A DNA stretch of 64,000 nt from a virus, in the IMG/VR virus record IMGVR_UViG_3300040801_003393, positions 46,539 through 110,538 of that record, one strand, 5' to 3'. Positions 15,301-63,554 of the stretch are shown one piece after another. Each line of letters starts with the position of its first letter. Position 1 is the stretch's first letter. Under the pieces are notes generated by a model. That model saw only the letters and a program-made list of their open reading frames with translations, searched no databases and had not been told where the DNA came from. A program made the position numbers and the translations under genes.

Positions 15301-18300
15301 TGGGTAGAGTCAAGTCTTCCACCAGCACGTTATACTGGCGAAGGCGAAGTGTATGACTTAAACAAATATGTTTCTGTAACATTAGTCAATGAGCAACGTA
15401 TCATTGAGAGCAAACATTACTTCTGGGTTAAGGGTATATCGCAGGTAAACAAAAATGCATATAAGACACTCGGCGCCGAAGCAGTTGCTACATACATCGA
15501 AACACCAAGTGCGTCGGGTCTGCCGTATCTGGCATTAATAAATGCAAGTACAATCGGAATGTTTAATATGACATCCGAGATTGATGTTAAAAATGTTATC
15601 TTGCATGTTGAATATGATAAGGTACGCAATGATAGCAAAGTATTTGTAGAGTTTGATCTATTGCGTGAAGGAGACGAAAGAGATACACTATCTCCTAGCG
15701 TATATAAAAAGATGCTAGATAGTTTCTGCGGAGTTGACTCGTTAGGAAACGCGGTTCCAGATATTAATCTAACCATTACTGATAGATACGGAATTGACTT
15801 TAGACCACGCAAGTCTATGTTTGTAGATAGGTTTGCAGCATTGTCAATGTATATACAAAAAGTCAATGGCATAATTGCACAGTATCCGGTTGCTGAATCT
15901 AAGGTATATCCTTTACTGAATAGTAAAGAAGAACCGCCTGCTGCTAACACAGGAGCATGGGATCTTCGCGTTGCAGACAATGCAGAATTATCGTATCAGA
16001 ACTTTAATATTGTTCCTGCAGGATACAAGTATTTGGTAGAAATTGATAGCAACAACAATGGCCTGTGGTCAATATATGAAGTTCAAGCAAATAAAACGTT
16101 ACAGTTGATTGTAGTACAAAGTTATGATACAAGACAGTTTTGGAACTATATTAACTGGTACGCAGATGACTTTAATCCATTGACTAAACCAGATATTGTT
16201 GTTGACACTTATGCGCAACTATTGACTATCGTTAAAGAAGAAGGTCGTGTTGCTAGAGTAAACTTGAACGCAAATGGTAACTGGGAAATATATCGTTGCC
16301 AAAACAATATTTGGGAACGTGTAGGTCTACAAAACGGAACCATTGCCTTCTCGACGCAGTTGTACGATTATTCTCTCGGTAGGTTTGGCTTTGATAACGA
16401 AGTTTTTGATGCGCAATATTTTGATCAGGAACCAGTAATCGAACTGCGTAATATTTTACGTTCAATCAATGAGGAAATATTAGTAGGCGACTTAGCTCTT
16501 GAACGCAACAATGTTCTAATAGCGGTGTTCAAGTATATTCTGTCAGAACAACAAAACGTAGATTGGTTATATAAAACATCATTGATTGATGTTTCGCATA
16601 AAGTTAGAACATTAGATTCATTTTCAGTCTATCAGAAAGAAAATCAGAATTATGTTATCGACTATATCAACGAAGCTAAACCATATCATACAAAAATTAA
16701 AGAATTCCGACTCGGCTACGACGGGTTTGACCAGTATAACGGTTTGGTAACTGACTTTGATTGTCCATCATACTATGATTCAGAGTTCGATCAATTTATT
16801 AGTCCAATTCTTGACGATGGTGCAATTTTAGTAACAGACCCAAGTAATAAAGCACCAACTGATCCAATTTGGGGAGAATTCCCATGGAGTTCCTGGTACT
16901 CAAATTATAAATTGCAAATCAGTGTAATCGAGGTACTAGACGGTGGCGCTGGATACACTATTCCACCACAGGTTAAGATTGTTGGTGATTGCGAAGAACC
17001 TGCTATTTTAGAAGCCCGTGTTAGTGGTAGCGGACAAATTACAGAGGTTCGTGTAATAACGCCAGGGTGTGGTTATTTGGATACTCCAGTTATAACATTC
17101 ATAGGTGGTAACGGCAGTGGCGCTTCAGCAAAAGCAGTTATGCGTAATGATCTAGTTAGATCATTTACTTTAACCATAAAATATGACCGTTACGAATATA
17201 CATCCTCGGTCTTAAACTGGGAAGATACAGTTACACGAAATATTGATGATTTAATAAGATTCAACAATACCGTATACCGGGTCAAAGAATCAAATAACGA
17301 TTTAACTTTTGTGTCGAGCAAATACGAAGAAGTTAATATCGAAGAATTGTCGGGTATTGATCGTACTGTCGGGTATTATGTACCGGATGTTAATAAACCA
17401 GGATTAGATTTATCGTTACTTGTTGACGGTATTGTGTTCCCGGGAGTACAGGTTGATGGCCCTGGATTTAATTTAAGTTCTGGATTTGATGTTCAGTTTT
17501 GGGATACAGATCTGTTTGATAGTATTGTATATGGTCCAGAAGGATACCCAACGTATCCTGCAAGTGCAATAGATACAATATACGAAAGTTCATTCCTAGA
17601 CGGATATCTAGGAACACGGGCAACAGATATAAATGTAGACGGTGGAGAATTTATTGATGTTTATCATTCCCACGCCCCAGAGGAGCTAGTTCCTGGCTCA
17701 ATGTTTGATACATTAAGCATTAGTGTTTACTCTCGCCCAGGTGCTGATTGGTTAAATGATGGTCATAGTTATGCATATCTAGCAGAAACATTTAATGTAA
17801 CTACAGTTCCGGCAATGGTGAGTTTTGCAAATATTGCAGAATACCCAATTACTGTATTTGTAGTAAACGCAACAACAAAACGTACCCTATACGAAACTAT
17901 AGATTTTACCGTTGATTGGATTAATCAGACAGTGTTAATAACTGATGATATAGCAATTAACGATAACGTTAAGGTTTTTATTAGTGAAATTGGCGGTGGT
18001 GATCAACTTCACCGAGAAATTATATTTGGTAACGAAGTAGTCAATGATCGTTACGAAATTCCAGTTAATGCGTCTGAAATTAAAGAAGTTATTGTTTTTG
18101 CTAACGGAGTAAGATTGCAGAACATAACAGTTGAGGCGATTGATAGCTATAGTTCAAATGTGGTGTTCTCAGACACATTAACAGCGAATGAGTTTGTAAC
18201 AATAACAGTATTTGGTATTAGCTCCCCATACGATGAGAATTATTTGCAGACATTTACGTTTGTTGCTGGGGCCGAGAACATTTCAGTTTATAATAATGCA

Positions 18301-26245: not shown

Positions 26246-27170
26246 TATTGCAGACCTAGATGTTGTATTTCTGACCTATGATGAACCATTAAAGGAAGAG
26301 TTCTGGGTTAAAATTAAAAACATGGTGCCGTGGGCAGTTCGAGTCGATGGTGTTAAGGGAAGTGATGCTGCCCACAAAGCAGCGGCAGATGCAGCACAAA
26401 CAGATCGATTTATACTAATTGATGGAGATAATTTACCAGATCCAGAATTCTTTAATTTGGTATTAGAATTCCCAAATAATGAGTATAATAATGCGGTATT
26501 TCGATGGCGAGCACGGAATCATATTAACGGACTAATGTACGGCAACGGTGGAATTTCGTGCTGGACAAAAGAGTTCGTATATAATATGAAAACACACGAA
26601 GCATCTGTGGGTAACGATGAAACTGATATTGAGTTTTGCTTTGACCCGTTATATTGGCCGATGCATGATTGCTATTCCACCACCCACCCAAATCAATCTG
26701 CAATGCATGCATGGCGCGCAGGGTTTCGCGAAGGAGTAAAGATGTGCCTTAATAAAGGAGCATTGCCTACCATTGGTGAGTTTAAAGATGCAGTTCACAA
26801 GCGCAATATGGACCATTTAAGTATTTGGCATAATGTTGGCCTTGACGTTGATAATGGCGCCTGGGCAATTCTTGGAGCAAGGCAAGGTACTCGGTTAACT
26901 ATGTTTAAAGAATGGAATTATAAACAAGTACACGACTTTGATCACTTAAATACTTTGTTCATTGAGTTAACCAGTGCATTTGAACCCAATTGTGTTTTGG
27001 ATGAAATCGAACGACTAGGTGAAGAATTAGCATCGCAGTTAGATTTACCAATGTGCGTATTAACACCCAATCAAAGCAAATTCTTCAAACATCATTATCG
27101 GAGTAACTGGCGCAATCGTGGTCCAATGGTTAGAGAGATTGATGTTATTCGCGAGGAAGAAGGCTGGTGA
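26229..27170 (+). CDS. Glycosyltransferase family 2-like protein
   Basis: A 313-residue protein with the strand DLDVVFLTYDEPL, a VDGVKGSDAAHKAAADAA nucleotide-binding stretch and a clear DxD-containing segment DRFILIDGDNLPDP (residues about 60-73), as in GT2/GT-A enzymes. The C-terminal half (WRAGFREGVKM, then WAILGARQGTRL) matches the last domain of the 542-residue protein at 37412, so the unit contains two related transferases at its ends. The next gene starts by a GTGA overlap. Acceptor unknown. Confidence 0.65.
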   Translation: MTQTIDIADLDVVFLTYDEPLKEEFWVKIKNMVPWAVRVDGVKGSDAAHKAAADAAQTDRFILIDGDNLPDPEFFNLVLEFPNNEYNNAVFRWRARNHINGLMYGNGGISCWTKEFVYNMKTHEASVGNDETDIEFCFDPLYWPMHDCYSTTHPNQSAMHAWRAGFREGVKMCLNKGALPTIGEFKDAVHKRNMDHLSIWHNVGLDVDNGAWAILGARQGTRLTMFKEWNYKQVHDFDHLNTLFIELTSAFEPNCVLDEIERLGEELASQLDLPMCVLTPNQSKFFKHHYRSNWRNRGPMVREIDVIREEEGW

Positions 27171-28540
27171 ATAAATCAAAATTTTTAACTGACGCTGAGT
27201 CGATGAGGAAGAAGTTAGATAATATAAGCCCTTCTCTATGCTTAGCGAAATGGAAGCAAGTAAGTTTACATTTACCAACCGGTCTGAATAACTCGTGCTA
27301 CCACCCACCATTGCATAAAATTCCAGTAGATGAAATTCGACGCAATCCAGCTGCATTACATAACACGCCACACAAAAAAGAAATGCGCAGGCAAATGATG
27401 AATGGAGAAAGACCTGCTGAATGTTCCTATTGCTGGAATATGGAAGACAATAGAAAGTTAAGTGATCGGCATTATCGTTCAGGCGAACCGTGGGCAGCTA
27501 AGGACTTTGACGCGATTGTTGCAAACCCAGACGCAGATGTCGTTCCTTCGTATGTAGAAGTGAACTTTAACCATGCGTGCAACTTGGCGTGTTCTTACTG
27601 CTCACCTCAATTTTCATCAACTTGGATGCAACAAGCAAAATCTTTAGGAGCTTATCCAACAACTACACCTCATAATGATCCTCAGTATTTCACTGGTGAT
27701 CGTCGGCCTATTCCAAATCGTGAGGATAATCCGTATGTGGAAGCGTTTTGGAAATGGTGGCCAGATCTCTACAAAGATTTAATACATTTCCGTATGACCG
27801 GTGGTGAGCCACTTATGGATAAAAACACTTACAAGGTGTTTGACTATGTATTGGAGAACCCAAAAAAAGATTTACATTTAAATGTAACTTCTAACTTTTC
27901 TGTTGATCATGAACTGTGGTGCAAGTATTATGACTACGTCAAACACTTGTGCAACGGACAGATTGAACATTTTATGCAATATGTTTCTTTGGATTGCTTT
28001 GGCAAGCAAGCAGAGTATTTACGTGCCGGAATGGATTTTGGAACAGTTTGGCAACGAGTGCATCAATTTTTAGCAGGCATACCCGAATATAGTAGCATCA
28101 CATTTATTATTACGATGAATAATTTGTCTATCCACTCGTTTAGACAGTTGCTCGAAGGGATTTTGCAATTACGGCAATCATATAGCAGAACGTATCAACG
28201 TGTATGGTTTGACACACCTGTATTACGAACTCCCGCTTGGCAGAGTTTACAAGTATTGCCCGATCATTATGCTGATCAGTTGCAAGAAATACACGATTGG
28301 ATGTTAGAGAATCTCGAAACACCAGATAACCCTTTTAAAGGATTTAAGGATTACGAGGCACATAGACTAGACCGAGACATTGCCTGGATGCGTAATGGCA
28401 CAGATAACTTAGTGCAAAAGAAAGCAGATTTTTATCGATTTTTCTCCGAATACGATAAGCGCCATAACTATAACTTTGAAAAAACTTTTCCAGAACTTCA
28501 ACCCTTTTGGGAAGAATGTAAGTATTACGCTACCGTTTAG
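27167..28540 (+). CDS. Radical SAM protein 1, N-terminal twitch/SPASM-like cysteines
   Basis: A 457-residue enzyme. The radical SAM cluster is CNLACSYC (C138, C142, C145) and the SAM-binding motif is MTGGEP (about 210-215). In front of the barrel, C25, C44, C86 and C89, in the framework SLCLAKW..CYHPP..CSYCW, form a half-SPASM (twitch-like) motif that usually sits after the barrel. It should generate a 5'-deoxyadenosyl radical for an unknown substrate. GTG start overlapping the previous stop (GTGA), with a purine-rich GAGGAAGAAGG just before it. It is followed after 37 bases by an 86-residue ORF and a close paralogue. Confidence 0.85.
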   Translation: MNKSKFLTDAESMRKKLDNISPSLCLAKWKQVSLHLPTGLNNSCYHPPLHKIPVDEIRRNPAALHNTPHKKEMRRQMMNGERPAECSYCWNMEDNRKLSDRHYRSGEPWAAKDFDAIVANPDADVVPSYVEVNFNHACNLACSYCSPQFSSTWMQQAKSLGAYPTTTPHNDPQYFTGDRRPIPNREDNPYVEAFWKWWPDLYKDLIHFRMTGGEPLMDKNTYKVFDYVLENPKKDLHLNVTSNFSVDHELWCKYYDYVKHLCNGQIEHFMQYVSLDCFGKQAEYLRAGMDFGTVWQRVHQFLAGIPEYSSITFIITMNNLSIHSFRQLLEGILQLRQSYSRTYQRVWFDTPVLRTPAWQSLQVLPDHYADQLQEIHDWMLENLETPDNPFKGFKDYEAHRLDRDIAWMRNGTDNLVQKKADFYRFFSEYDKRHNYNFEKTFPELQPFWEECKYYATV

Positions 28541-28577
28541 TAAATACAAAAACCACATAAAATAAAGGGAGAAAACA

Positions 28578-28838
28578 ATGGTAGATGTAGTGACGTCCGC
28601 GAACGAAGAATTGTACCGCCGAGCATTTGCAATTATGCAAAATCACACAATGGAATGTATTGAAGAAACAGTTACAGATATGGCACAATTACTGGCAAAA
28701 GTTTGCTGTGCATTTGGTGTACCGCAAGACGAAATACTAAATCAAATTACTATAGAACAATTCGACTATCATTTAAGAAAAATACTTGACAGCAAGGATT
28801 GTATGTGCAATAATAATTCGCATGACTCTAAGAAATAA
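28578..28838 (+). CDS. Small protein (86 aa) between two radical SAM genes
   Basis: A helical N-terminus (ANEELYRRAFAIMQNHTMECIEE), a paired-cysteine AKVCCAFGVP segment, then a short Cys-containing tail DCMCNNNSHDSKK. GGGAG lies 8 bases before the ATG, and its end overlaps the start of radical SAM protein 2. Placement and the Cys/Asn-rich tail make it a possible substrate peptide (leader plus core) or a small partner subunit; this is inference, as no RiPP leader family is recognised. Confidence 0.6.
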   Translation: MVDVVTSANEELYRRAFAIMQNHTMECIEETVTDMAQLLAKVCCAFGVPQDEILNQITIEQFDYHLRKILDSKDCMCNNNSHDSKK

Positions 28839-30180
28839 AACTCGAGAAACTGATTTACAAATAAAACAACACCTGGATAGTTTTAGCCCGTCACTGTGCC
28901 TGGCAAAATGGTATAACGCCACTATATGGCTCGGTAGCGGACAAACCACTTCATGCCATCACCCACCCGCACACCAAATTAGTGTTAGCGACATTGGGCG
29001 CAATCCAAAAGCAATACATAATACCAAAGAGAAGAAAGAGCAGCGGTCCCAAATGTTGCGTGGTGAAAGGCCAGCCGGATGTGATTATTGTTGGAAGATA
29101 GAAGACATCGACTCGGAAAAGATTTCAGACCGTGTTTATAAGTCAGTCATTTATAACGACGATGATTTAGAATTTGCGGTGGGACAGAATCCAAACAATG
29201 ACTTTGACCTTAAAACCCTAGAAATTGCCTTTGACCGAACTTGTAATTTTGCATGTTCATATTGTAATCCTGCTTTTTCGTCTGAATGGGTTAAAGATAT
29301 AAAGAATAATGGGCCCTATTCCAATTTGAAATCCGATGGGAGAAATCACTTTACTCACGCACATGATTCGGCCCAGCCGTTTAAATTAGATGAAGAGAAT
29401 CCTTATGTTGAGGCATTCTTTAAATGGTGGGAAAGTGATTTGCATAAAACTCTATTTGAGTTAAGATTAACTGGTGGCGAGCCTTTGATGTCTCCATATA
29501 CATGGAGATTATTTGATTGGTTTATACAACATAAGTCAAAAATGCGGTTTGCAATCAATAGCAACCTAGGAGCAAAAGATTCCTTAATTGATAAGTTGAT
29601 AGAAACATCACACGCTATTGAGGACTTCCATCTTTATACTTCAAACGAGAGTATGTATGAACATGCAGAGTATATTCGTGACGGGTTAATTTGGGATCAA
29701 TGGGATAAAAACGTTAATAGGATAATAGAAGAAGGCAACATTAAAGGGTTCCATATGATGTGTACCATTAACGCATTATGTTTAGAATCGTTGCCAGACT
29801 TCCTAGATTATCTATTAGACCTTAAACGAAAGTATGGAAAAGATTTCCCAACGTTTACGTTAAATATTTTACGATTCCCTAGTTTCCAGAGTCCATTGGT
29901 ACTTCCGTTGGAGTTGCGTGGGTTTTTTCGTAAAAGATTGTACGATTGGTTAGTGGCTAATCAAAATAATGATCTACTTCATCAAATGGAAATTAATCAA
30001 GTTAATAGACTAATAGACTATTTAGATGTTGTAAAAACACCGCACAACAATGTATTCGATATAGAATCATTATTGCATAATGACTTTTATCATTTCTATA
30101 AGCAATATGATGAGCGCCGCCGCAAGAATTTTACAGAAACATTCTCTCAAATAGCATCCTGGTACCGGAGTTTAAAATGA
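28822..30180 (+). CDS. Radical SAM protein 2, paralogue of protein 1
   Basis: A 452-residue enzyme, clearly homologous to protein 1 throughout (SLCLAKW, CHHPP, ERPAGCDYCW). Auxiliary cysteines C26, C45, C87 and C90 precede the barrel; the radical SAM motif is CNFACSYC (C141, C145, C148) and LTGGEP follows. The start at 28822 was chosen because it aligns with protein 1; a longer TTG start at 28786 adds residues with no counterpart. It overlaps the 86-residue ORF by 17 bases and the next gene by ATGA. Substrate unknown; the pair could act on two sites of one substrate. Confidence 0.85.
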   Translation: MTLRNKTRETDLQIKQHLDSFSPSLCLAKWYNATIWLGSGQTTSCHHPPAHQISVSDIGRNPKAIHNTKEKKEQRSQMLRGERPAGCDYCWKIEDIDSEKISDRVYKSVIYNDDDLEFAVGQNPNNDFDLKTLEIAFDRTCNFACSYCNPAFSSEWVKDIKNNGPYSNLKSDGRNHFTHAHDSAQPFKLDEENPYVEAFFKWWESDLHKTLFELRLTGGEPLMSPYTWRLFDWFIQHKSKMRFAINSNLGAKDSLIDKLIETSHAIEDFHLYTSNESMYEHAEYIRDGLIWDQWDKNVNRIIEEGNIKGFHMMCTINALCLESLPDFLDYLLDLKRKYGKDFPTFTLNILRFPSFQSPLVLPLELRGFFRKRLYDWLVANQNNDLLHQMEINQVNRLIDYLDVVKTPHNNVFDIESLLHNDFYHFYKQYDERRRKNFTETFSQIASWYRSLK

Positions 30181-31841
30181 ATTTAAAAGAAATTCTATCT
30201 AAGATAGAAACAGAATACGATGTGATTACAATTATTGAACTAAATCAATGGCGCGAGTTGCCTTTTTATAAACGAGAATCCTGGTTAAAGAAAGCGTTAT
30301 ACCAAGCAAGGAAAGATGTTTATCAAAATAAAGAAAGAATTGTGCTGACGTTAACGGTTGATTACCAGGCAGATTTAATTTTAGAAATTGTAGAGCGTCT
30401 TATATTTGAAATTGATATTAGTGATTTTTTTGTTACATTCATTACTAATCTTAATCTATCCAGCGACCGAATTTCAATAATTAGGTGTGATAACCCAGTT
30501 ATAACTGTCGTTGATGGCGATGATGTAGAAATGAAATTGATTAAAAAACTTTCCCCGGGATATATTTCCATCGCACCAGAAAAAAGAGATATATCTACAT
30601 TGACTAATTCACAGGCAAATTTACTTTTAGAAAGTGAGACATTTTGTATGTATCCTTGGATACATTTACATGCATACCCAACAGGCGAAGCCTGGCCATG
30701 TTGTCATGCTGAGAGATCTCCAGGAGAACTTGGTTCCTGTCGGGAACAATCACTTCAGGAATTGTGGAATAGTCCGAAACAAAAGCAGCTAAGAAAAGAC
30801 ATGTTAGCCGGGGTCCCAAATAGTTATTGTATTCGTTGTTATGAACGGGAAAAAAGTGGATTTTTTTCTGGCAGGCAATGTGCCAATAAACACCACGGTC
30901 ACCATATAAATCGAGTTGATCATACAAAAGAGGACGGGCATTTAGATCAATTCGAAATGACATATTGGGATATTCGTTTTTCTAATTTGTGTAATCTTAA
31001 ATGTCGCTCATGCGGACATATATTTTCATCTACTTGGTATCAAGATCAAGTTGCATTGGCCGGACCGGATTGGGGCAAGAAAAATAAACCGTTACAAATT
31101 GCTGGACGTTACGAAGGAGATTTATTCCAGCAACTATTAGAACATGTTGATCGTGTTGAACAAATATATTTTGCAGGTGGTGAACCATTGATGATGGAAG
31201 AGCATTACGCTATATTAGATGAACTTGAAAAGCGTAATATGTTCCATGTTCGGTTAATTTACAATACAAATTTTACAAAAACAAAATTTAAGGATAGAGA
31301 GGTTTTTGATTATTGGCGTAAGTTTAAGTCAGTGTCGGTCGGCGCAAGTTTAGACGCAATGGGTCCGAGAGCAGAGTACATACGATCTGGAACTAAGTGG
31401 GAAACAATAGAATCCAATCGCAAGCGAATGATGGAAATTTGCCCTGAGGTAGACTTCTATGTTAGTGCTACTCTTAGTATCATGAACGCATTGCATTTGC
31501 CCGATTTCCATCGCGAATGGGTAGATAAAGGTTTTATTAGAGGACAAGACTTTAATGTTAATATTCTTCAGGATCCGGCATTTTATCGAATCGATATTGC
31601 GCCTCAAGAAATGAAGAAAGAAATCGAACACCGATATATAGAACACCTACTTTGGCTCAAGGGGCAAGATCACATTGAGCGTGCAACCAATGGATTTGAA
31701 AGTGCTATTAGATATATGAATGCAACAGATAACTCATACCTAATAGGTAAATTTTGGGAGAGAACTCTGCAATTAGATGAACTGCGCAATGAATGTATAT
31801 ATGATTATATTCCTGAGTTGAAGAGGTTACACAATGACTGA
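30177..31841 (+). CDS. Radical SAM protein 3, with extra N-terminal domain
   Basis: A 554-residue protein. Residues 1-150 form an extra domain (YQNKERIVLTL, FEIDISDFFVTFI) shared with protein 4. Residues 157-221 carry the SPASM-like set C157, C175/C176, C218, C221 in the framework CMYPWIHL..PTGEAWPCC..LQELWNS..CIRC, very close to the classical SPASM signature. The radical SAM motif CNLKCRSC (C272, C276, C279) and FAGGEP come after it. This order, auxiliary domain first, is the reverse of most SPASM enzymes. ATGA overlap upstream; 8-base overlap downstream. Confidence 0.85.
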   Translation: MNLKEILSKIETEYDVITIIELNQWRELPFYKRESWLKKALYQARKDVYQNKERIVLTLTVDYQADLILEIVERLIFEIDISDFFVTFITNLNLSSDRISIIRCDNPVITVVDGDDVEMKLIKKLSPGYISIAPEKRDISTLTNSQANLLLESETFCMYPWIHLHAYPTGEAWPCCHAERSPGELGSCREQSLQELWNSPKQKQLRKDMLAGVPNSYCIRCYEREKSGFFSGRQCANKHHGHHINRVDHTKEDGHLDQFEMTYWDIRFSNLCNLKCRSCGHIFSSTWYQDQVALAGPDWGKKNKPLQIAGRYEGDLFQQLLEHVDRVEQIYFAGGEPLMMEEHYAILDELEKRNMFHVRLIYNTNFTKTKFKDREVFDYWRKFKSVSVGASLDAMGPRAEYIRSGTKWETIESNRKRMMEICPEVDFYVSATLSIMNALHLPDFHREWVDKGFIRGQDFNVNILQDPAFYRIDIAPQEMKKEIEHRYIEHLLWLKGQDHIERATNGFESAIRYMNATDNSYLIGKFWERTLQLDELRNECIYDYIPELKRLHND

Positions 31842-33411
31842 GTATCGACGATTAGCCACAATAAATGCCAATGAATTTAGGTCAAAGTTCGAACTTATTA
31901 AAGAACTAAAAAAATATTATAAAGAAGAATATCAAAATGACGAAAGAATAGTTGTTAACATCAATGAAACATTTAATAATAGCATCTACGGTGACCATCT
32001 TTCGATGTTACAACTTGCATTGAATGATATTGATATATCAAACTTTTTTATTCTAGTTAATAGTAATGATAACAATATTAAAGAACATGTTAAGTGGGTT
32101 ACTGATAACCTGAGTTACGATACAGTTTCTGTGCAAATTTCAGAAACCAACAATGATAGATACCAGGCAACAAGATCCCAATTAAAAACCAGATATCCTC
32201 AATTAAATATCCCAACTGAGTCTTTTTGTGTGTTGCCATGGATTAGTCTTGAAGCCGGGCCAATTGGCACGGTTCGTCCTTGTTGCTTAACAGACGACGA
32301 AATAAAAGACGAGTACGACCAACCTTATACGTTAACAGAAAATTCACTGAGCGAAATACATAATTCAGAGTGGATGCAAATTTTACGTTCAGAATTTCTT
32401 CAGGGTAAGAAGCCAACGACTTGTCGAAAGTGCTGGGACACAGAAGCCGCAGGTATTAAAAGCAAGAGACAACATATGCAAGACCGGTTAAAGGAGATCC
32501 TGGCTACGGAAATAAAATGGACAGAAGATGCAAAATCACTAATGTTTCTTGATTTAAAACTTGGAAATATCTGCAACTTAAAGTGCCGTATTTGCGGAAG
32601 TTGGTCTAGTTCAACTTTTGCTACAGAAGAATTAGAACAAGTTAAAAGTAAGAAAGATAGTTGGCATTATGTAATGCTATCGCAAGGACGCTGGCCGCGT
32701 ACATCGCCACACTTTTGGGAAGACCTATATAAGATGAGTTCAGACTTGCGGTATATTGAATTTACCGGTGGTGAACCATTTATGATTAAAGAGCACTTTG
32801 CATATTTGCAATACCTAGTCGACCAGGGTTTTGCACAAAACATCGAAATACATTATAACACAAATGGAACACAGTGGCCAGAAGAGCATATACACTTATG
32901 GAAACATTTTAAGTTAGTTGAAATTGCTTTCTCAATTGACAATATTGGAATTCGATTCGAATACGAAAGAACAAATGCTACGTGGCCGGAGGTTGTTTAT
33001 AACCTAAAACATTTCTTTGAACTGCGTAACAAAAACAAAAATATTCAGTTGCAATTATGTACAACCATTAATATTTATAATGTTTTGTACTTAGAAAGCA
33101 TCTGCCATTGGGAATTTTTTGATAAGTTTGATTTTGTTTATTGGAATATGTTACATAATAGCCCAGAAAATTGCATTCAAGCGTTGCCGCCTTCAGTGAA
33201 GTCCGCTGTGGCTGCAACACTACGTCGCGCGAAGGTTGACGAAAAAACTCGTCAAGAGTTTGATAAAGTCATTGAATTCATGAATAGATCAAACGGTGTG
33301 TTTCCTAAAGCAGTTACAGATCGAATCGACGAATTAGATGAGAGAAGAGACCATAGTTTGCGTTCTACTCATCCCGAATTATATAGGCTCTTATATGAAG
33401 AGGCCAACTAA
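31834..33411 (+). CDS. Radical SAM protein 4, with the shared N-terminal domain
   Basis: A 525-residue paralogue of protein 3. The N-terminal domain (YQNDERIVVNI, LNDIDISNFFILV) matches that of protein 3. Auxiliary cysteines are C132, C150/C151, C197 and C200 in CVLPWISL..GTVRPCC..CRKCW. The radical SAM motif is CNLKCRIC (C247, C251, C254) with FTGGEPFM. Its ATG overlaps the end of protein 3 by 8 bases, so the two are co-translated and could form a heterodimer. Confidence 0.85.
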   Translation: MTEYRRLATINANEFRSKFELIKELKKYYKEEYQNDERIVVNINETFNNSIYGDHLSMLQLALNDIDISNFFILVNSNDNNIKEHVKWVTDNLSYDTVSVQISETNNDRYQATRSQLKTRYPQLNIPTESFCVLPWISLEAGPIGTVRPCCLTDDEIKDEYDQPYTLTENSLSEIHNSEWMQILRSEFLQGKKPTTCRKCWDTEAAGIKSKRQHMQDRLKEILATEIKWTEDAKSLMFLDLKLGNICNLKCRICGSWSSSTFATEELEQVKSKKDSWHYVMLSQGRWPRTSPHFWEDLYKMSSDLRYIEFTGGEPFMIKEHFAYLQYLVDQGFAQNIEIHYNTNGTQWPEEHIHLWKHFKLVEIAFSIDNIGIRFEYERTNATWPEVVYNLKHFFELRNKNKNIQLQLCTTINIYNVLYLESICHWEFFDKFDFVYWNMLHNSPENCIQALPPSVKSAVAATLRRAKVDEKTRQEFDKVIEFMNRSNGVFPKAVTDRIDELDERRDHSLRSTHPELYRLLYEEAN

Positions 33412-35801: not shown

Positions 35802-35905
35802 TGTTTAATTGGATAAAAAGAATAATTAATAAAATTAAACTAGAAGTTCGTTATCGAAAAAAGATGAAAGAACTAAAAAAGAAAGACCCGTTTATCTATA
35901 AATGA
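35801..35905 (+). CDS. Very small basic protein (34 aa)
   Basis: MFNWIKRIINKIKLEVRYRKKM then a Lys-rich end KDPFIYK. It has a perfect AGGAGG six bases before the ATG and is coupled on both sides (TAATG with the previous stop, ATGA with the carbamoyltransferase start), which argues that it is translated. The N-terminal 14 residues are amphipathic. It could be a membrane-surface peptide, a small subunit or a modification substrate. Confidence 0.6.
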   Translation: MFNWIKRIINKIKLEVRYRKKMKELKKKDPFIYK

Positions 35906-37419
35906 AAAATATATTAGGAATATCGGCTGGATTCCATGACGCAGGGCTTTCAGTAATAAGTCCGGCCGGCGACATTTTGTTTGCAAGTCACGCCGAGAGA
36001 TTTTCAAAGAAAAAACATGACGCTGAAATGTGTACGCATATGGTAAATTATGCAATGCAGTTTGGCGAAGTTGATACGATTGCATATTATGAAAGGCCAT
36101 GGTTAAAAAACTTAAGAATGGTCAGGTCAGGCCAAGGGGCTGATTCGCCATGGCAATTAAAAAATGTATTAAATAAACATTTGTTTTTTCATCCAAAGTT
36201 AGTCAACAATGCAAATTTAAAGGCATTCGGTCATCATCTATCACACGCAGCAGCAGGCTTTCAAACCTCGCCGTTTGATGATGCCACTGTGCTTGTTATT
36301 GATGCAATTGGTGAGTTTGATACAGTTAGTGTTTGGAATGCATGGTACGATAAAAAAGGTAATGCACAATACAAACTGCGGTGGAGGATGAAGTACCCAG
36401 ATTCTATTGGTATGTTTTATTCGGCTATGACTAAGTTCGTGGGATTACGCCCAATGGACGAAGAGTACATTTTAATGGGTATGGCTGCATACGGAAAAAA
36501 TATCGAAGTAGTTGGAAAGATGGCTGATCGCTTTTTAGCAGTACCAGACCCATCACATGAGCCATTCACTTTTAAGGATAATTTACATATCGGAGTTGAC
36601 ACCGACTGGATACAAAAAGAACATATCTCTGATTTTGATATTGCTATGGCCACCCAAGAAATATTAGAATGGCAATTACATCGAATCATGCTGAAGAGTA
36701 TGCAATATCGGAACTCTGGAAATTTAGTTTATATGGGTGGTGTAGCATTAAACTGTTTAGCAAATAGAGCCCTCGGACGATACTATAAAGATGTCTGGAT
36801 TATGCCAAACCCAGGCGATGCTGGTTCAAGTTTAGGTGCAGCAGCCCTAGCCTATAAAAAGAAACTTAACTGGAAAGATGCATATCTCGGTTATAACATC
36901 GAGGGCGAGTATCCAGTTAAACCTATAATTGATGAATTGATAGTTAATAAGATTGTTGGTGTAGCAAATGGTCGAGCCGAGTTTGGGCCAAGAGCATTAG
37001 GCAATAGATCTTTACTGGCAGATCCACGCGGCCACGATATTAAAGACAAAGTTAATGAAATTAAACGCAGGCAACAATTCCGCCCATTTGCTCCAGTCAT
37101 ACTTGAAGAACATGTGCGTGAATATTTCAATATGCCAACCGGGTTTAATACATCACCGTATATGCAAGTCGTTGCCAAGTGTAAGCGCCCAGATGAGTTT
37201 CCAGCGATCATACATGCCGACGGTACTAGTCGAGTACAAACGGTTGCTAATGATGGTTCCGGCATAAGAAAATTATTAGAAGCCTGGAAAGTTTATACCG
37301 GCTGTCCTATGCTACTAAACACATCACTGAACATTCGTGGCGAACCAATGGTTAATGATGTTAGTGACGCAAAACGATTTGAAGATTTGTATAAAGTAAA
37401 GGTTTTTACAAGTGTTTGA
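35902..37419 (+). CDS. Carbamoyltransferase, NodU/CmcH/TobZ family
   Basis: A 505-residue protein that should transfer a carbamoyl group from carbamoyl phosphate, through carbamoyl-AMP, to a hydroxyl of a sugar or natural product. The N-terminal Kae1-like domain begins with GISAGFHDAGLSV and has the metal-binding HHLSHAA (H111, H112, H115) and GGVALNC. The C-terminal YrdC-like domain shows AEFGPRALGNRS, RPFAPVI and LLNTSLNIRGEPMV. All key family motifs are present, so it is probably active. ATGA overlap upstream and GTG overlap downstream. Related genes occur in cyanophages; here the acceptor is probably the glycan or product made by this unit. Confidence 0.9.
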   Translation: MKNILGISAGFHDAGLSVISPAGDILFASHAERFSKKKHDAEMCTHMVNYAMQFGEVDTIAYYERPWLKNLRMVRSGQGADSPWQLKNVLNKHLFFHPKLVNNANLKAFGHHLSHAAAGFQTSPFDDATVLVIDAIGEFDTVSVWNAWYDKKGNAQYKLRWRMKYPDSIGMFYSAMTKFVGLRPMDEEYILMGMAAYGKNIEVVGKMADRFLAVPDPSHEPFTFKDNLHIGVDTDWIQKEHISDFDIAMATQEILEWQLHRIMLKSMQYRNSGNLVYMGGVALNCLANRALGRYYKDVWIMPNPGDAGSSLGAAALAYKKKLNWKDAYLGYNIEGEYPVKPIIDELIVNKIVGVANGRAEFGPRALGNRSLLADPRGHDIKDKVNEIKRRQQFRPFAPVILEEHVREYFNMPTGFNTSPYMQVVAKCKRPDEFPAIIHADGTSRVQTVANDGSGIRKLLEAWKVYTGCPMLLNTSLNIRGEPMVNDVSDAKRFEDLYKVKVFTSV

Positions 37420-47872: not shown

Positions 47873-48853
47873 TTAGAAGTCGTGACGCATACCAACATTG
47901 AATACGCCGACTTCGGTCCCAGATGCATCGTCCGTAATGTCCTGGTAATTTACATACACTTTGGTACGCTTACTGAAGTGATGCTGACCTTCAACAGTCC
48001 AGGTGGTCTGATCAAGGACGGTGCCCCAATCGTACTGCTGGTAGCCAACTAGTACGGTGTTGTTGCCAAAGTCAGCCGCACCACCAACTGCATACATCTG
48101 CCCGTCGTCCACGCCAGCGACGTTTACGTCAAGGTTTTCGTAACCGGCATTTACACGCCAGTTGTTTGCACCACCAAATTCATAAGCTGCACCAACAGTA
48201 ATAACTTCAACGTCGCGAAGCGCAGGGATGCTGGTGTCCTGTGCCAAGGTAGAACCAGTAACATAACCGATGCCAATGTAAGCATCGTAACCTTCATAAG
48301 TTACGCGATATTCCTGCAAGTCAACATTTTCTTCGTTTGCTACAACAGCATTGTCACCGTCCATAACGACGCTAACAGAACCTTGGAATCCAGCAAAAGT
48401 AGGAGTAACATAATTTACACCATTGCCATATACACCACTAAAGGTGAAATCGTTTGAACGTCCTTCAAACTGGTCGATGGTAGCATCACCAATGCCAGCG
48501 GCAAGTGTGTCGTACCGACCAAGGCGAACAGCACCGAATGTTTCGTTACTCAAGCCCATATACATCTGGTCAACTTCAAGTGCGGATCCGCTGGTATTGT
48601 AACCACGGATCCCAGGACCTTCTTCACCGTTGATGTCAAAGCTGAAGAAACCAAACGCAGTAGTACCGTTGCCCAGGTCTTCGCTTACTTCAATCCCAAC
48701 TTCAGAATCGCCAAATACGACGTCAGATCCTGAAGCATCACCGCTGTACATTTCAACAGCGCCTTCCATAGTACCGAAGAGTGTAACCTCGGCTGTTGCG
48801 GCAACCGGTGCCACTGCGACCGCGACCGCAGCCGCAATATATGATAGTTTCAT
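47873..48853 (-). CDS. Gram-negative outer-membrane porin
   Basis: A 326-residue protein with a classic Sec signal peptide (MKLSYIAAAVAVAVAPVAATA, cleavage before EVTLFG) and porin features: LFGTMEGAVEMY first strand, ALEVDQMYMGLSNETFGAVRLGRYDT (the L3/porin signature region), alternating amphipathic strands and a C-terminal Phe in MRHDF that targets it to the BAM machinery. It should form a beta-barrel channel in the host outer membrane. It follows dCMP deaminase within 6 bases (AGGAG inside the deaminase end) and ends at a UUCG terminator, so it belongs to the phage unit. Porins are rare in phages; host-derived cargo is likely. Confidence 0.9.
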   Translation of the reverse strand: MKLSYIAAAVAVAVAPVAATAEVTLFGTMEGAVEMYSGDASGSDVVFGDSEVGIEVSEDLGNGTTAFGFFSFDINGEEGPGIRGYNTSGSALEVDQMYMGLSNETFGAVRLGRYDTLAAGIGDATIDQFEGRSNDFTFSGVYGNGVNYVTPTFAGFQGSVSVVMDGDNAVVANEENVDLQEYRVTYEGYDAYIGIGYVTGSTLAQDTSIPALRDVEVITVGAAYEFGGANNWRVNAGYENLDVNVAGVDDGQMYAVGGAADFGNNTVLVGYQQYDWGTVLDQTTWTVEGQHHFSKRTKVYVNYQDITDDASGTEVGVFNVGMRHDF

Positions 48854-56695: not shown

Positions 56696-57730
56696 TCAGC
56701 TCATACCCAAAAACATTGCAATACCTGCAATTATTGCTACCGCACCAAGAACTATCCATGTTGGATTGATCTTTTTAATTTTGTTTATAATAACAGAAAC
56801 TTGCTCGCTTGTCGATGGTTTTGAGTCTTCAATTGCCTCAACTGCTTCTTCGACTAATTCCTCGCCAGGAACAGCCAAAAACGTTTCATTGAAATATCGC
56901 TCCGAGCCATTTAGTTCTGGACGTTGCGCGTATCCATATGCAACCATAAAGTCGTTCATCTTTTTAACTAAGTCACGATAGGTGATTTTATAGTTGTGTT
57001 TCTTGAGGGTATTTATTAAGGCATACGTGGCTGCTCCACAATACATATTGTCAATCCGAGCGTCTGCTGCGGTTTGTTGCGATTGACATCCAGATATCAT
57101 TAGTCCAACATTATCAATATCTCGACTTTGTACTGATCTTTTTGGTACGCCTATATCTAATCCTAAGCCGCGATTTAAAATATCTGCTGGCATCGGTAAT
57201 GCACGAGAACGGGCATGATCATCTTTATCATTGGTTAGTGTATAGTTGTATTCAGATTTTTCAGTTGGTGGCTGCCATTGGTTCATGTGGTCCATTCCAG
57301 AACCACTGTGGCAACAATCGAGTACAACCGTAAGTTGAACACCAGCTGGAACCTTATCGAATATTCTTTTTAAATCGTCATCTCGTATAACTTTTTCGCG
57401 CCAATCTAAATCAACCGGGCAAATGATCTCGTCGAGTTTATCTGGTTCTTTGTTTAAATCGTAATCGGTGTCGATAGTTTGAGATCCATGACCACTATAG
57501 TGGAAATATAAAGTATCGCCAGGTTCTGCGTCTTTAACTAACCACTCAAGACGTTCTAAAATATTTGCTGTAGTTGCGGATTCGTCAGTTAGCATTCTTT
57601 TGTCAGTTGATTTGAATCCGAAATGCGTGGTTAGCATATCACTAACCATCAATACGTCATTGACGCAACCGCGTAATGGGGCTGTTGGATAGGTGTTGAT
57701 TCCAACGAGCAATGCACGTTTCTTTGCCAT
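56696..57730 (-). CDS. Metacaspase (caspase-like C14) with C-terminal membrane anchor
   Basis: A 344-residue protein. The caspase fold is shown by KKRALLVGINTYPTAPLRGCVND, the catalytic His in HYSGHGSQT (H81) and the catalytic Cys in LDCCHSGSG (C140). The specificity-pocket Asp segment DEIICPVD is present. GLMISGCQSQQTAADA and GAATYALINTL are typical of bacterial metacaspases. A linker rich in Glu and a tail anchor WIVLGAVAIIAGIAMFLG end the protein, so the protease domain should face the cytoplasm. Cleavage after Arg or Lys is expected for the family. AGGAG lies seven bases upstream. A metacaspase in a lytic phage is unusual. Confidence 0.93.
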   Translation of the reverse strand: MAKKRALLVGINTYPTAPLRGCVNDVLMVSDMLTTHFGFKSTDKRMLTDESATTANILERLEWLVKDAEPGDTLYFHYSGHGSQTIDTDYDLNKEPDKLDEIICPVDLDWREKVIRDDDLKRIFDKVPAGVQLTVVLDCCHSGSGMDHMNQWQPPTEKSEYNYTLTNDKDDHARSRALPMPADILNRGLGLDIGVPKRSVQSRDIDNVGLMISGCQSQQTAADARIDNMYCGAATYALINTLKKHNYKITYRDLVKKMNDFMVAYGYAQRPELNGSERYFNETFLAVPGEELVEEAVEAIEDSKPSTSEQVSVIINKIKKINPTWIVLGAVAIIAGIAMFLGMS

Positions 57731-57780: not shown

Positions 57781-58827
57781 TTATGGCAAAGTGACGTTGG
57801 CCCACCTAATGCTGATAGGAACTAGTGTATCAAGGAATATATGCGCAGTTTTCTCCCACGAATAGTTTTCCTGTACATAATCGTAAACTTTCCTACGATC
57901 TAATGTTAAACAGTTTGCAACGGCTGTATACAGGTCTTCGTCTAAGTAACCATTGACGCCATTGACTACAAAATCTTTTGGCCCAGTTACTGGATACGCT
58001 GCAACAGGACAGCCGCATGCATTGGCCTCGATCATTACAATGCCAAACGTGTCTGTTTTACTCGGAAATACAAAGCAATCAGATTTAGCGATTTCTCGAG
58101 CTAGGTCAGTACCAAACTTGTATCCTAAGAATCGAATGTTAGGATGTTGGTATTCTTCTTTTAAACGAGCTAAGTCTGGGCCATCACCAATCACTTGTTT
58201 AATAAAGCCTTCGTGGGGTAGGTTTAGAAATGCTTCTATGTTTTTTTCAACAGCCACCCGTCCTACATACGTTAATACAGGAATGTCGTTGTTAGGTAGG
58301 GCAGCTACTCTCCAATCAAAGGTATTATAGTCAACACCGCGTGTCCATACTTGCAAATTAGGATGCAATGACCAAGCGTCGAGCTCTTCTTTCATCGAAG
58401 GCGTTGTGACTAGGCAGGCGCGACTCCCTTTGTGGTGCCATCGCATAAAACGATATCCCCAAGACAAAGGAACCCACGGGAATCGTTCTTTAATATATTC
58501 GGGCGTTTTTGTATGGTACGATGTTGTAAACGGAATCTTTTTATGTCTACAAAACGTACCAGCAGCAACACCTAAAGTACCTTCGGTTGCGATATGTATT
58601 GCGTCGGGTTTAATGTTTTTAATAATGCTGCCAACTTTCCATACATTCCAAACGAGCCTGATTTCCTTGTATGTTGGTAGGCTAAATGATTTTAAGCCTG
58701 GCCAATCGTGACTTAAAACAACAACTTCGTGTCCTGCTTGTTTGGCTTGTTCAATAGTGGCTTCAAGAGTTCGAACTACACCGTTGACTTGTGGTCTCCA
58801 TGCATCAGTTACTATTAGTATCTTCAT
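57781..58827 (-). CDS. Family 4 glycosyltransferase, Agt-like glycolipid synthase candidate
   Basis: A 348-residue GT-B enzyme. The N-terminus ILIVTDAWRPQVNGVVRTLEAT and the segment DAIHIATEGTLGVAAG are typical of proteobacterial GT4 enzymes acting on lipids. The nucleotide-sugar site is VGRVAVEKNIEAFL and FPSKTDTFGIVMIEANACGCPVAAY with the E-X7-E pattern. In marine bacteria, genes of this type (agt) lie next to plcP and make glycolipids that replace phospholipids under phosphate limitation; here it overlaps a PlcP-like gene by 23 bases. The glycolipid function is inferred from family and neighbour. Confidence 0.82.
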   Translation of the reverse strand: MKILIVTDAWRPQVNGVVRTLEATIEQAKQAGHEVVVLSHDWPGLKSFSLPTYKEIRLVWNVWKVGSIIKNIKPDAIHIATEGTLGVAAGTFCRHKKIPFTTSYHTKTPEYIKERFPWVPLSWGYRFMRWHHKGSRACLVTTPSMKEELDAWSLHPNLQVWTRGVDYNTFDWRVAALPNNDIPVLTYVGRVAVEKNIEAFLNLPHEGFIKQVIGDGPDLARLKEEYQHPNIRFLGYKFGTDLAREIAKSDCFVFPSKTDTFGIVMIEANACGCPVAAYPVTGPKDFVVNGVNGYLDEDLYTAVANCLTLDRRKVYDYVQENYSWEKTAHIFLDTLVPISIRWANVTLP

Positions 58828-59593
58828 GATCGATTATGTGCCAATGTATAATTTCAATTCGTCCATCGTGGTGCTCTACAAGTGCAGTGCAGCTTTCGAC
58901 CCAATCGCCGTCGTTGTAATACGTGATGCCATTGATGTCTCGTATTTCTGCGTGATGTATATGCCCGCAGACGACGCCGTCGTGTTTGCGTTTTTTACAT
59001 TCGTGAGCAACGGTTGTTTCAAACGATGTAATAAACTCAACGGCACCTTTAACTTTGTGCTTTAGATAGGCACTTAACGACCAATACCCCATTCCAAACT
59101 TTGCTCGTACTTTATTAAATAGGGTGTTAATGGCAATCAGGCTGTTGTATGCAATATCACCAGCATGCGAAATCCATTTATGATATCGCGTAACACCATC
59201 GTATAGGTCACCATGAATGACCCAAAGCTCGCGGCCATCATGTGTGGTATGTACGAACTCGTTTGCAAATTCAATATTGCCAAAATCTCGATCTTCAAAA
59301 AAGTCAAGATATTTTCTTAGAAACTCGTCATGGTTTCCAATGACGTATTTGATTTGAGTTCCTTTTCTGGCTTTGTTTAGAAAGCGACGCAATATATTAA
59401 CGTGCTTCTGCGGAAAGTGGGTCATTCCGCGAGACATATTCCAGCCGTCGATAATATCTCCGACTAAGTAGATTGTTTCTGCTTTATTATTTTGCAAAAA
59501 GTCACTGAGATAGTCTGCCTTACAACCTCTAGTGCCGAGGTGTATGTCAGATATCCATATAGTGCGATATGAATTTTTTTCTTCAGATGCCAT
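58805..59593 (-). CDS. PlcP/LpxH2-like metallophosphoesterase (COG2908)
   Basis: A 262-residue calcineurin-like enzyme with complete metal motifs: WISDIHLGTRG (D16, H18), VGDIIDGW, IGNHDEF, VIHGDLYDG and GHIHHAEI. COG2908 includes UDP-diacylglucosamine pyrophosphatases and PlcP, a phospholipase C-like enzyme that frees phosphate from phospholipids to leave diacylglycerol. The coupled GT4 gene favours PlcP, since plcP-agt is the known pairing. There is no signal peptide; it would act at the inner face of the membrane. Overlaps the 64-residue gene by 11 bases. Confidence 0.8.
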   Translation of the reverse strand: MASEEKNSYRTIWISDIHLGTRGCKADYLSDFLQNNKAETIYLVGDIIDGWNMSRGMTHFPQKHVNILRRFLNKARKGTQIKYVIGNHDEFLRKYLDFFEDRDFGNIEFANEFVHTTHDGRELWVIHGDLYDGVTRYHKWISHAGDIAYNSLIAINTLFNKVRAKFGMGYWSLSAYLKHKVKGAVEFITSFETTVAHECKKRKHDGVVCGHIHHAEIRDINGITYYNDGDWVESCTALVEHHDGRIEIIHWHIIDHEDTNSN

Positions 59594-59777
59594 TATCTGG
59601 GGAGTTAATTTCTTTCTGTATTGCGTCTAAAGTGCGATTGGCATTTTCTCGTGCTTTTTCTGCTAACCATTCGCTTCTTCGTAAGCATCTTTTAATGTCA
59701 GAAACATAAGATTCGAGATCTTTAATGTTTTGATTCGTAGGATCTCGTGGCTTTTGTTTAGTGTTATGCTGCAACAT
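59583..59777 (-). CDS. Small coiled-coil protein (64 aa)
   Basis: A helical, basic sequence (NIKDLESYVSDIKRCLRRSEWLAEKAREN). AAGGA precedes the ATG; a GCTAAATA late-like element (59813-59806) lies 28 bases further upstream. Translationally coupled to the PlcP-like gene. Function unknown. Confidence 0.6.
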   Translation of the reverse strand: MLQHNTKQKPRDPTNQNIKDLESYVSDIKRCLRRSEWLAEKARENANRTLDAIQKEINSPDNGI

Positions 59778-59838
59778 AGGAACGTCCTTTTAGCGTTGTT
59801 GCGAGTATTTAGCCCTACATAATCAAATTATTATAAGA

Positions 59839-62795: not shown

Positions 62796-63554
62796 TTATA
62801 TTTCTAGGATGAAATCCGAAACGTAGCCGGTATTTTCAAACCAATTTGGCGCACGGCGATAACCGTGTTGATTGCTAGCAACCAACGTGCCATTGAGGTC
62901 TTCCACCACTGAATGGTGAGTGTGTCCAAATAGCCAAAGTTTAACAGAACTGTCCAGAATTTGATTGTCCAGACCGCTATTGTAGAAATAGTACGAGATC
63001 TCATCTACTGAAAATCGAGGATTGGAAATTAAAACTGGTGGAAAATGCGTAACAATTACGTCTGCATCCCAGTTGATTTTGTCACGGGTGCGACGGTTAA
63101 TCTCAACCATTTGGTGAGTGCTAAAATTTCGCACGCCATGCTTGATAGCATGGAAGTCGTTGATGTTGTCCGCTACCCGCTTATTTACGAACCAGTCATT
63201 ACCGCGGAGATCGCTCCAGAGAGTGGAGCCCCAGAACTTAACACCGTCGATCTCGAGGTTATCGGTGCCAATGGCTTCGTCGAGCAGATGTACGCCGCAT
63301 TTCTTTGCAATACGATAGGCCTCGGACAGAGTTTCCTCATACTGCATACCGTAAAATTCATGGTTGCCGAGGACCCAGATTACATGCTCAGCAAGATCCT
63401 TGCGCTCTTCAAAAAACGCTTCAAGTTTGGTTTGCTGGTCAATTGTCTGCAGACTGCCAATATCGCCTGCCAGAACGCAGACGTCAGATGCAACAGTTGA
63501 TTGGTTGGGTATGCCCTTTTCGAGGTGGGCATCGCTTTGTAGATGAATTCTCAT
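62796..63554 (-). CDS. Calcineurin-like metallophosphoesterase
   Basis: A 252-residue protein with QSDAHLEKG, LAGDIGS, VLGNHEFYGMQY, VIVTHFPPV and LFGHTHHSV, a full metallophosphatase set. It differs from the PlcP-like protein and is closer to general phage and bacterial phosphoesterases of unknown substrate (nucleotides, phosphoproteins or nucleic acid ends). ATGA overlap with the upstream gene. Confidence 0.88.
   Translation of the reverse strand: MRIHLQSDAHLEKGIPNQSTVASDVCVLAGDIGSLQTIDQQTKLEAFFEERKDLAEHVIWVLGNHEFYGMQYEETLSEAYRIAKKCGVHLLDEAIGTDNLEIDGVKFWGSTLWSDLRGNDWFVNKRVADNINDFHAIKHGVRNFSTHQMVEINRRTRDKINWDADVIVTHFPPVLISNPRFSVDEISYYFYNSGLDNQILDSSVKLWLFGHTHHSVVEDLNGTLVASNQHGYRRAPNWFENTGYVSDFILEI

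Follow-up and report, generated by a model that had tools for sequence, protein, structure and literature searches.

The window, by which we mean the whole analysed stretch of 64,000 nucleotides, corresponds to positions 46539-110538 of a virus record totalling 110,538 bases and carries the following features around the locus of interest:

57781..58827, minus strand: predicted Agt-like GT4 diacylglycerol glycosyltransferase, complete, 348 aa (open reading frame, Pfam, motifs and mapped residues)
58805..58827, minus strand: 23-bp overlap of the plcP 3' end with the agt 5' end
58805..59593, minus strand: PlcP-like metallophosphoesterase (phospholipase C type), complete, 262 aa (open reading frame, Pfam, LpxH-model score and tree)
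59583..59777, minus strand: ORF64, 64 aa, function unassigned, its 3' end overlapping the plcP start by 11 bp
59805..59812, minus strand: CTAAATAC, T4-late-promoter-like motif, 34 nt upstream of the ORF64 start

The original prediction had described a phosphoesterase with all its metal motifs overlapping a GT4 glycosyltransferase, and this description holds: both open reading frames lie there with their 23-bp overlap, the Pfam matches agree (Metallophos_2, 2.4e-9, for the former; Glyco_transf_4, 1.8e-22, and Glycos_transf_1, 9.1e-21, for the latter) and the metal-site motifs of the metallophosphoesterase are complete (D16/H18, G45-D46-x-x-D49, G86-N87-H88, H127 and H211/H213). Full-length relatives of both proteins, at 46-60% identity, occur in many genomes, which excludes chance as the origin of the reading frames. 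The overlap implies that the two genes would be co-translated. ORF64, which is not common to other phage plcP-agt loci, is the likely first gene of an ORF64-plcP-agt transcription unit, given the T4-late-type motif that precedes it and its own overlap with plcP, and the lack of any clear Shine-Dalgarno sequence before either enzyme gene upon inspection by eye fits such a three-gene message with coupled translation.

Genomic context

Gene content, both inside and outside the window, identifies the carrier record as a fragment of a T4-like myovirus: it encodes a T4-type major capsid protein (MCP; phrog_138, 2e-98), a portal protein (phrog_213, 6e-105), a prohead protease (phrog_207, 4e-56), a baseplate wedge protein (1e-284) together with further baseplate proteins, and gp46/gp47-like recombination proteins. 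Its MCP is 65-66% identical to those of the large phages 2.275.O, PA5oct and Phosso, which infect Vibrio, Pseudomonas and Sinorhizobium and have genomes of 284-469 kb, so that the 110-kb record is probably a piece of a larger genome.

Several further genes of the window deserve mention in their own right. Directly downstream of agt lies a metacaspase-like C14 peptidase (56696-57730, minus strand; PF00656, 5.6e-33). It carries a membrane segment at its C terminus, its gene has a late-type motif of its own, and its single relative among phage records (37%) is found in a 485-kb uncultured phage. A second metallophosphoesterase (62796-63554, minus strand; phrog_1649, 6e-35) is encoded 3 kb upstream of the pair; it is a speculative candidate for the phosphatase that phosphorus recycling would require. 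Between the baseplate wedge and tail-fibre-like genes runs an open reading frame of 4516 aa (6304-19854, plus strand), and at least four radical-SAM/SPASM proteins are encoded in a run (27167-33411, plus strand) next to a Nol-like carbamoyltransferase (35902-37419), perhaps forming a peptide or glycan modification cluster; the observation also takes in L014 and L015, the latter with another radical-SAM protein.

Family assignment of the two enzymes

The window phosphoesterase is 60% identical to PlcPs of Nevskia and Thiomicrorhabdus, 47-60% identical to other bacterial PlcPs and 57.9% identical to a P. aeruginosa PlcP adjoining agt. The latter is a plasmid copy whose gene is followed by an Agt gene and then by an adenylate cyclase gene, as in the characterised PA3219-PA3218 pair (PMC8528852); we infer that it represents PA3219. 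RefSeq names such bacterial PlcPs 'UDP-2,3-diacylglucosamine diphosphatase', which is why their relatives are called diacylglucosamine hydrolases in phage annotation. Taken at face value, this name, shared by auxiliary-gene pipelines, would make the phosphoesterase an LpxH-type hydrolase of the lipid A pathway, with the GT4 acting on lipopolysaccharide or another glycan. Such a reading can draw on weak matches to LpxH models, on the calcineurin-like superfamily and fold common to both proteins (the best structural matches of the AlphaFold model, pLDDT 78, are LpxH-type folds) and on other glycan genes in the window, among them an epimerase and the Nol-like carbamoyltransferase. The matches, however, reach only 31.2 bits against a cut-off of 190.35 and 32.4 bits against one of 134, and equal those of PlcPs from bacteria that also possess a true LpxH: among 12 bacterial genomes with plcP searched with the LpxH model, 8 hold a true LpxH at 212-339 bits alongside a separate PlcP-type protein, PlcP-type matches score 30-46 bits, and the reference values are 44.5 bits for P. 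aeruginosa PlcP and 389 bits for E. coli LpxH. The window protein furthermore carries GNHDE where LpxH has GNRD, and in a tree of 91 sequences LpxH branches off as a separate clade with 100% support. The neighbours of the window PlcP in that tree, where the bacterial sample is biased towards the closest relatives of the window proteins, are Thiomicrorhabdus, Nevskia, Endozoicomonas, P. aeruginosa and a Pseudomonadales MAG (SH-aLRT 92; 97 for the larger clade). A grouping with UDP-diacylglucosamine hydrolases had been named beforehand as the refuting outcome, and the window PlcP does not group with them. Score, motif, tree and bacterial controls, together with a GT4 that groups with plcP-linked Agts, make the lipid A reading highly improbable, and we reject LpxH identity: by these comparisons the phosphoesterase is of the PlcP type, and it and LpxH belong to one superfamily and to different families.

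The second enzyme is 46-52% identical to Agts adjoining plcP, with 46% for that of P. aeruginosa, and its predicted model shows a confident GT-B fold (pLDDT 92) matching GT4 structures of the MshA, BshA and PimA type. Signatures of the SAR11 GTcp group (GRVAxEKN, FPSxTDTFG and a catalytic His104/Asp256 pair) and residues whose mutation abolishes GTcp activity have been defined previously (PMC8231724). The window Agt contains GRVAVEKN at 189-196, FPSKTDTFG at 254-262 and H105 and D259 as the catalytic pair. When mapped by the published numbering, donor-site residues G16, G82, G85, R190, K195, T257, F258, G259 and E264 correspond to window positions 16, 83, 86, 190, 195, 260, 261, 262 and 267, and the diacylglycerol-site residues T162, R163 and W320 to 162, 163 and 324 (R163 and W324 at the predicted lipid site), such that all 14 functional residues are kept. 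In the Agt tree the window protein falls inside the bacterial set (95%), among plcP-linked Agts and next to that of the Pseudomonadales MAG (L192) whose PlcP is also near the window PlcP. We therefore assign it a predicted activity as an Agt-like diacylglycerol glycosyltransferase.

An alternative would retain the PlcP-Agt plan while directing it to other lipids or polymers, through a different head group, acceptor (e.g., phosphatidylglycerol) or sugar donor. The top NCBIfam match of the window GT4 is indeed a GlcNAc-phosphatidylglycerol synthase model, at 62.7 bits against a cut-off of 480, and the donor-site motif is divergent in viral Agts, most of which have GRVS or SRVS as the first motif; yet the plcP-linked P. 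aeruginosa Agt scores equally weakly on the same model (59.9 bits), and the window Agt retains the motif of the bacterial enzymes as well as the residues assigned to the diacylglycerol site. We consider this alternative unlikely for the window pair. Among viral relatives at large, the catalytic D is replaced by E in 26 of 119, so viral Agts need not all make one lipid.

Recurrence and origin of the pair

Whether other phages carry the pair had been posed as a check, and the answer is strongly positive. Alignment-based scans of IMG/VR, where single-protein scans had given no match, return at least 591 PlcP loci and at least 134 Agt loci, and both genes lie on one strand at 39 of the 80 best PlcP loci. 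Among the 80 best Agt loci this holds for 72, giving 111/160 overall; in most cases plcP comes first and -16 to 232 bp separate it from agt. The same arrangement is found at 42 of the 80 best bacterial PlcP loci. Among the longer pair-bearing contigs (n = 50), 13 encode a terminase above the Pfam cut-off, 10 a T4-type MCP and 15 either or both, two of these 15 being near copies; the remaining contigs are fragments and only putatively viral. Between related viral copies the median pairwise dN/dS is 0.048 for plcP and 0.092 for agt, values which indicate that both genes are under purifying selection and kept as working enzymes.

Annotated phage records give a sparser picture: across 50,697 of them a PlcP relative is present in 6 and the plcP-agt pair in none. 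The strongest Agt match in that collection, Acinetobacter phage MD-2021a, is surrounded by bacterial housekeeping genes, and we discarded it as contamination. Separately, five contigs of the viral set, putative viruses (L096-L098, L100 and L105), have an Agt relative with no PlcP in the examined flank, that of L096 being 52% identical to the window Agt.

The nearest relatives of both window proteins are gammaproteobacterial and other proteobacterial, and not specifically marine. This could be taken as the signature of a host segment mis-assembled into a viral contig, an explanation to which we give almost no weight and which we reject on base composition: the pair's GC content of 0.41-0.42 and GC3 of 0.35-0.39 match those of the phage genes, unlike the nearest bacterial plcPs (GC 0.53-0.66, GC3 0.68-0.93). 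A phage polynucleotide kinase gene lies 0.8 kb upstream (phrog_505, 4e-98), the late-type motif precedes the unit, and the pair recurs on many other phage contigs. The motif GR[LV]A.EKN, present in the window Agt and in 31 of 42 bacterial Agts, occurs in 0 of 119 viral ones; in conjunction with the trees, it suggests that this phage may have acquired plcP and agt from a proteobacterium independently of the large viral clades. With the bacterial sample biased as above, neither placement of the pair is rejected by AU tests (p 0.36-0.48).

Promoter motif and expression

Throughout the record, roughly one gene in four is preceded by TAAATA at a distance of 10-43 nt, a variant of the T4-type late promoter without a strict TATAAATA. 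It stands upstream of 12 of 47 genes, versus 1.1 expected, and precedes the capsid and portal genes while being absent before gp46/gp47. Similar motifs are found within 45 nt before plcP in 6 of 15 other phage loci, two of the six being near copies. The late-type motif before the unit suggests that both enzymes would be expressed late. Signs of phosphate control were also sought: no Pho box was matched near the pair at up to 3 mismatches of the E. coli-type consensus, from which host-specific boxes could differ, and neither PhoH nor a class-I ribonucleotide reductase (RNR) small subunit was found in the 110-kb record fragment. Of the original reading, the identity of the pair as PlcP-Agt is supported by sequence, motif, tree and synteny. 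With neither a convincing Pho box nor PhoH found, phosphate regulation is not evident in this record.

Proposed function

In bacteria the PlcP-Agt pathway is experimentally established: under phosphate stress PlcP turns phosphatidylglycerol and phosphatidylethanolamine into diacylglycerol, and Agt converts the latter into mono-hexosyl- or glucuronosyl-diacylglycerol (PMC4796936, PMC8231724, PMC8528852). We propose, with a probability of roughly 80%, that the window pair is a phage-borne membrane-lipid remodelling module taken from proteobacteria that exchanges phospholipid for glycolipid during infection; both enzyme activities and their sugar and lipid specificities we infer from sequence. 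The PlcP-like enzyme would cleave host phosphatidylglycerol or phosphatidylethanolamine into diacylglycerol and a phosphorylated head group, and the Agt-like GT4, made from the same message, would transfer glucose (or glucuronate or galactose) from a UDP-sugar onto the diacylglycerol, such that a phosphorus-free glycolipid would replace the phospholipid and diacylglycerol would not build up.

As to the benefit, our first choice, held at slightly less than even odds, is that lipid phosphorus is recycled into phage DNA. Genes recurring near the pair in other phages include RNR, ThyX and PhoH. Of 9 independent contigs, 3 encode PhoH no more than 2 kb from plcP, versus 0.3 expected (P = 0.003, in a test chosen after recurrent neighbours had been noticed), and the closeness of NrdB, the RNR small subunit, is not significant (P = 0.16-0.40). 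The proximity of PhoH and a phosphate-binding gene beside the PlcP gene of phage Mosig point to phosphorus. Counting against recycling, much of the phage DNA synthesis would already be under way by the time enzymes made from a late promoter appear; PlcP yields a phospho-head group from which a further phosphatase would be needed to release phosphate; and the 110-kb fragment shows no convincing Pho box, PhoH or class-I RNR small subunit.

Our second choice, possible and distinctly less probable, is that the pair serves to change the cell envelope late in infection and not DNA supply, by hindering superinfection or adsorption to debris, by masking the cell or by readying the membrane for lysis. 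To our knowledge, Agt-type glycolipids are not known to serve as phage receptors, and the PhoH neighbours and the Mosig gene likewise weigh against it. In its favour are the T4-late-type motif before the unit and a further envelope gene of the same phage:

47873..48853, minus strand: outer-membrane porin of Gram-negative type, complete (PF13609, 4e-39; signal peptide; C-terminal Phe)

This gene, which is followed by a terminator-like hairpin and for which phage and plasmid records gave no match, suggests that the phage may change the envelope. Moreover, phage adsorption is about fourfold lower on Ruegeria without a membrane aminolipid (PMC9938194), and a review cites unpublished data on adsorption changes with phosphorus-driven lipid remodelling (PMC9804370).

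More broadly, we tentatively suggest, at somewhat worse than even odds, that lipid remodelling is a standard tool of many T4-like phages, captured several times from bacteria, which produces glycolipid-rich virocells whose membrane supplies phosphorus for phage DNA. It would have gone unseen with plcP named 'lpxH' in annotation and auxiliary-gene pipelines. Exchanging lipids through PlcP and Agt is one of the main ways in which bacteria cope with phosphorus shortage in the ocean, and phages may routinely rebuild the host membrane, perhaps freeing phosphorus. If so, the virus would direct membrane rebuilding in infected cells, phosphorus flow in infected communities would change, and glycolipids used as phosphate-stress markers would gain a viral source; whether a phage mines the host membrane for DNA phosphorus could then be tested directly. 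Viral auxiliary genes catalogued in two surveys of aquatic viruses include 'lpxH' (PMC9611531, PMC10653327); since RefSeq and phage records name PlcPs UDP-2,3-diacylglucosamine diphosphatase, these genes may be misnamed plcP and would need re-examination.

Comparison with known systems

We found no paper describing a phage plcP-agt pair among 5.39 million open-licence PMC papers, and the main text of a survey of phage phosphorus-acquisition genes mentions neither plcP nor lipids (PMC10987575). The genes pstS, phoH, phoA/phoD and ugpQ resemble the window pair in being host-derived and in possibly easing a lack of phosphorus during infection, but act on uptake or on external or soluble organic phosphorus, whereas the pair would draw on the membrane. 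Among cultured phages, Pelagibacter phage Mosig EXVC030M and Synechococcus phage S-SRM01 encode PlcP relatives (47% and 36% identity) that bear the annotation UDP-2,3-diacylglucosamine hydrolase/diphosphatase; unlike in the window, no Agt relative was found in either record, and the Mosig gene adjoins one for a phosphate-binding protein (PBP_like_2).

The proteobacterial PlcP-Agt pathway, as in P. aeruginosa (PA3219-PA3218), Pelagibacter HTCC7211 (PB7211_983/PB7211_960) and Methylosinus OB3b, employs the same two families as the window pair, with plcP preceding agt on the same strand and with conserved catalytic residues; identities to the P. aeruginosa proteins are 58% (PlcP) and 46% (Agt). 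The window pair differs in being encoded by a T4-like phage, in its overlapping genes, where 30-208 bp separate the matched stretches of the bacterial pairs examined, and in a late-type phage promoter motif in place of a Pho box. The chemistry is known from bacteria; a phage-encoded plcP-agt module that recurs across T4-like phages would, by the literature covered, be new.
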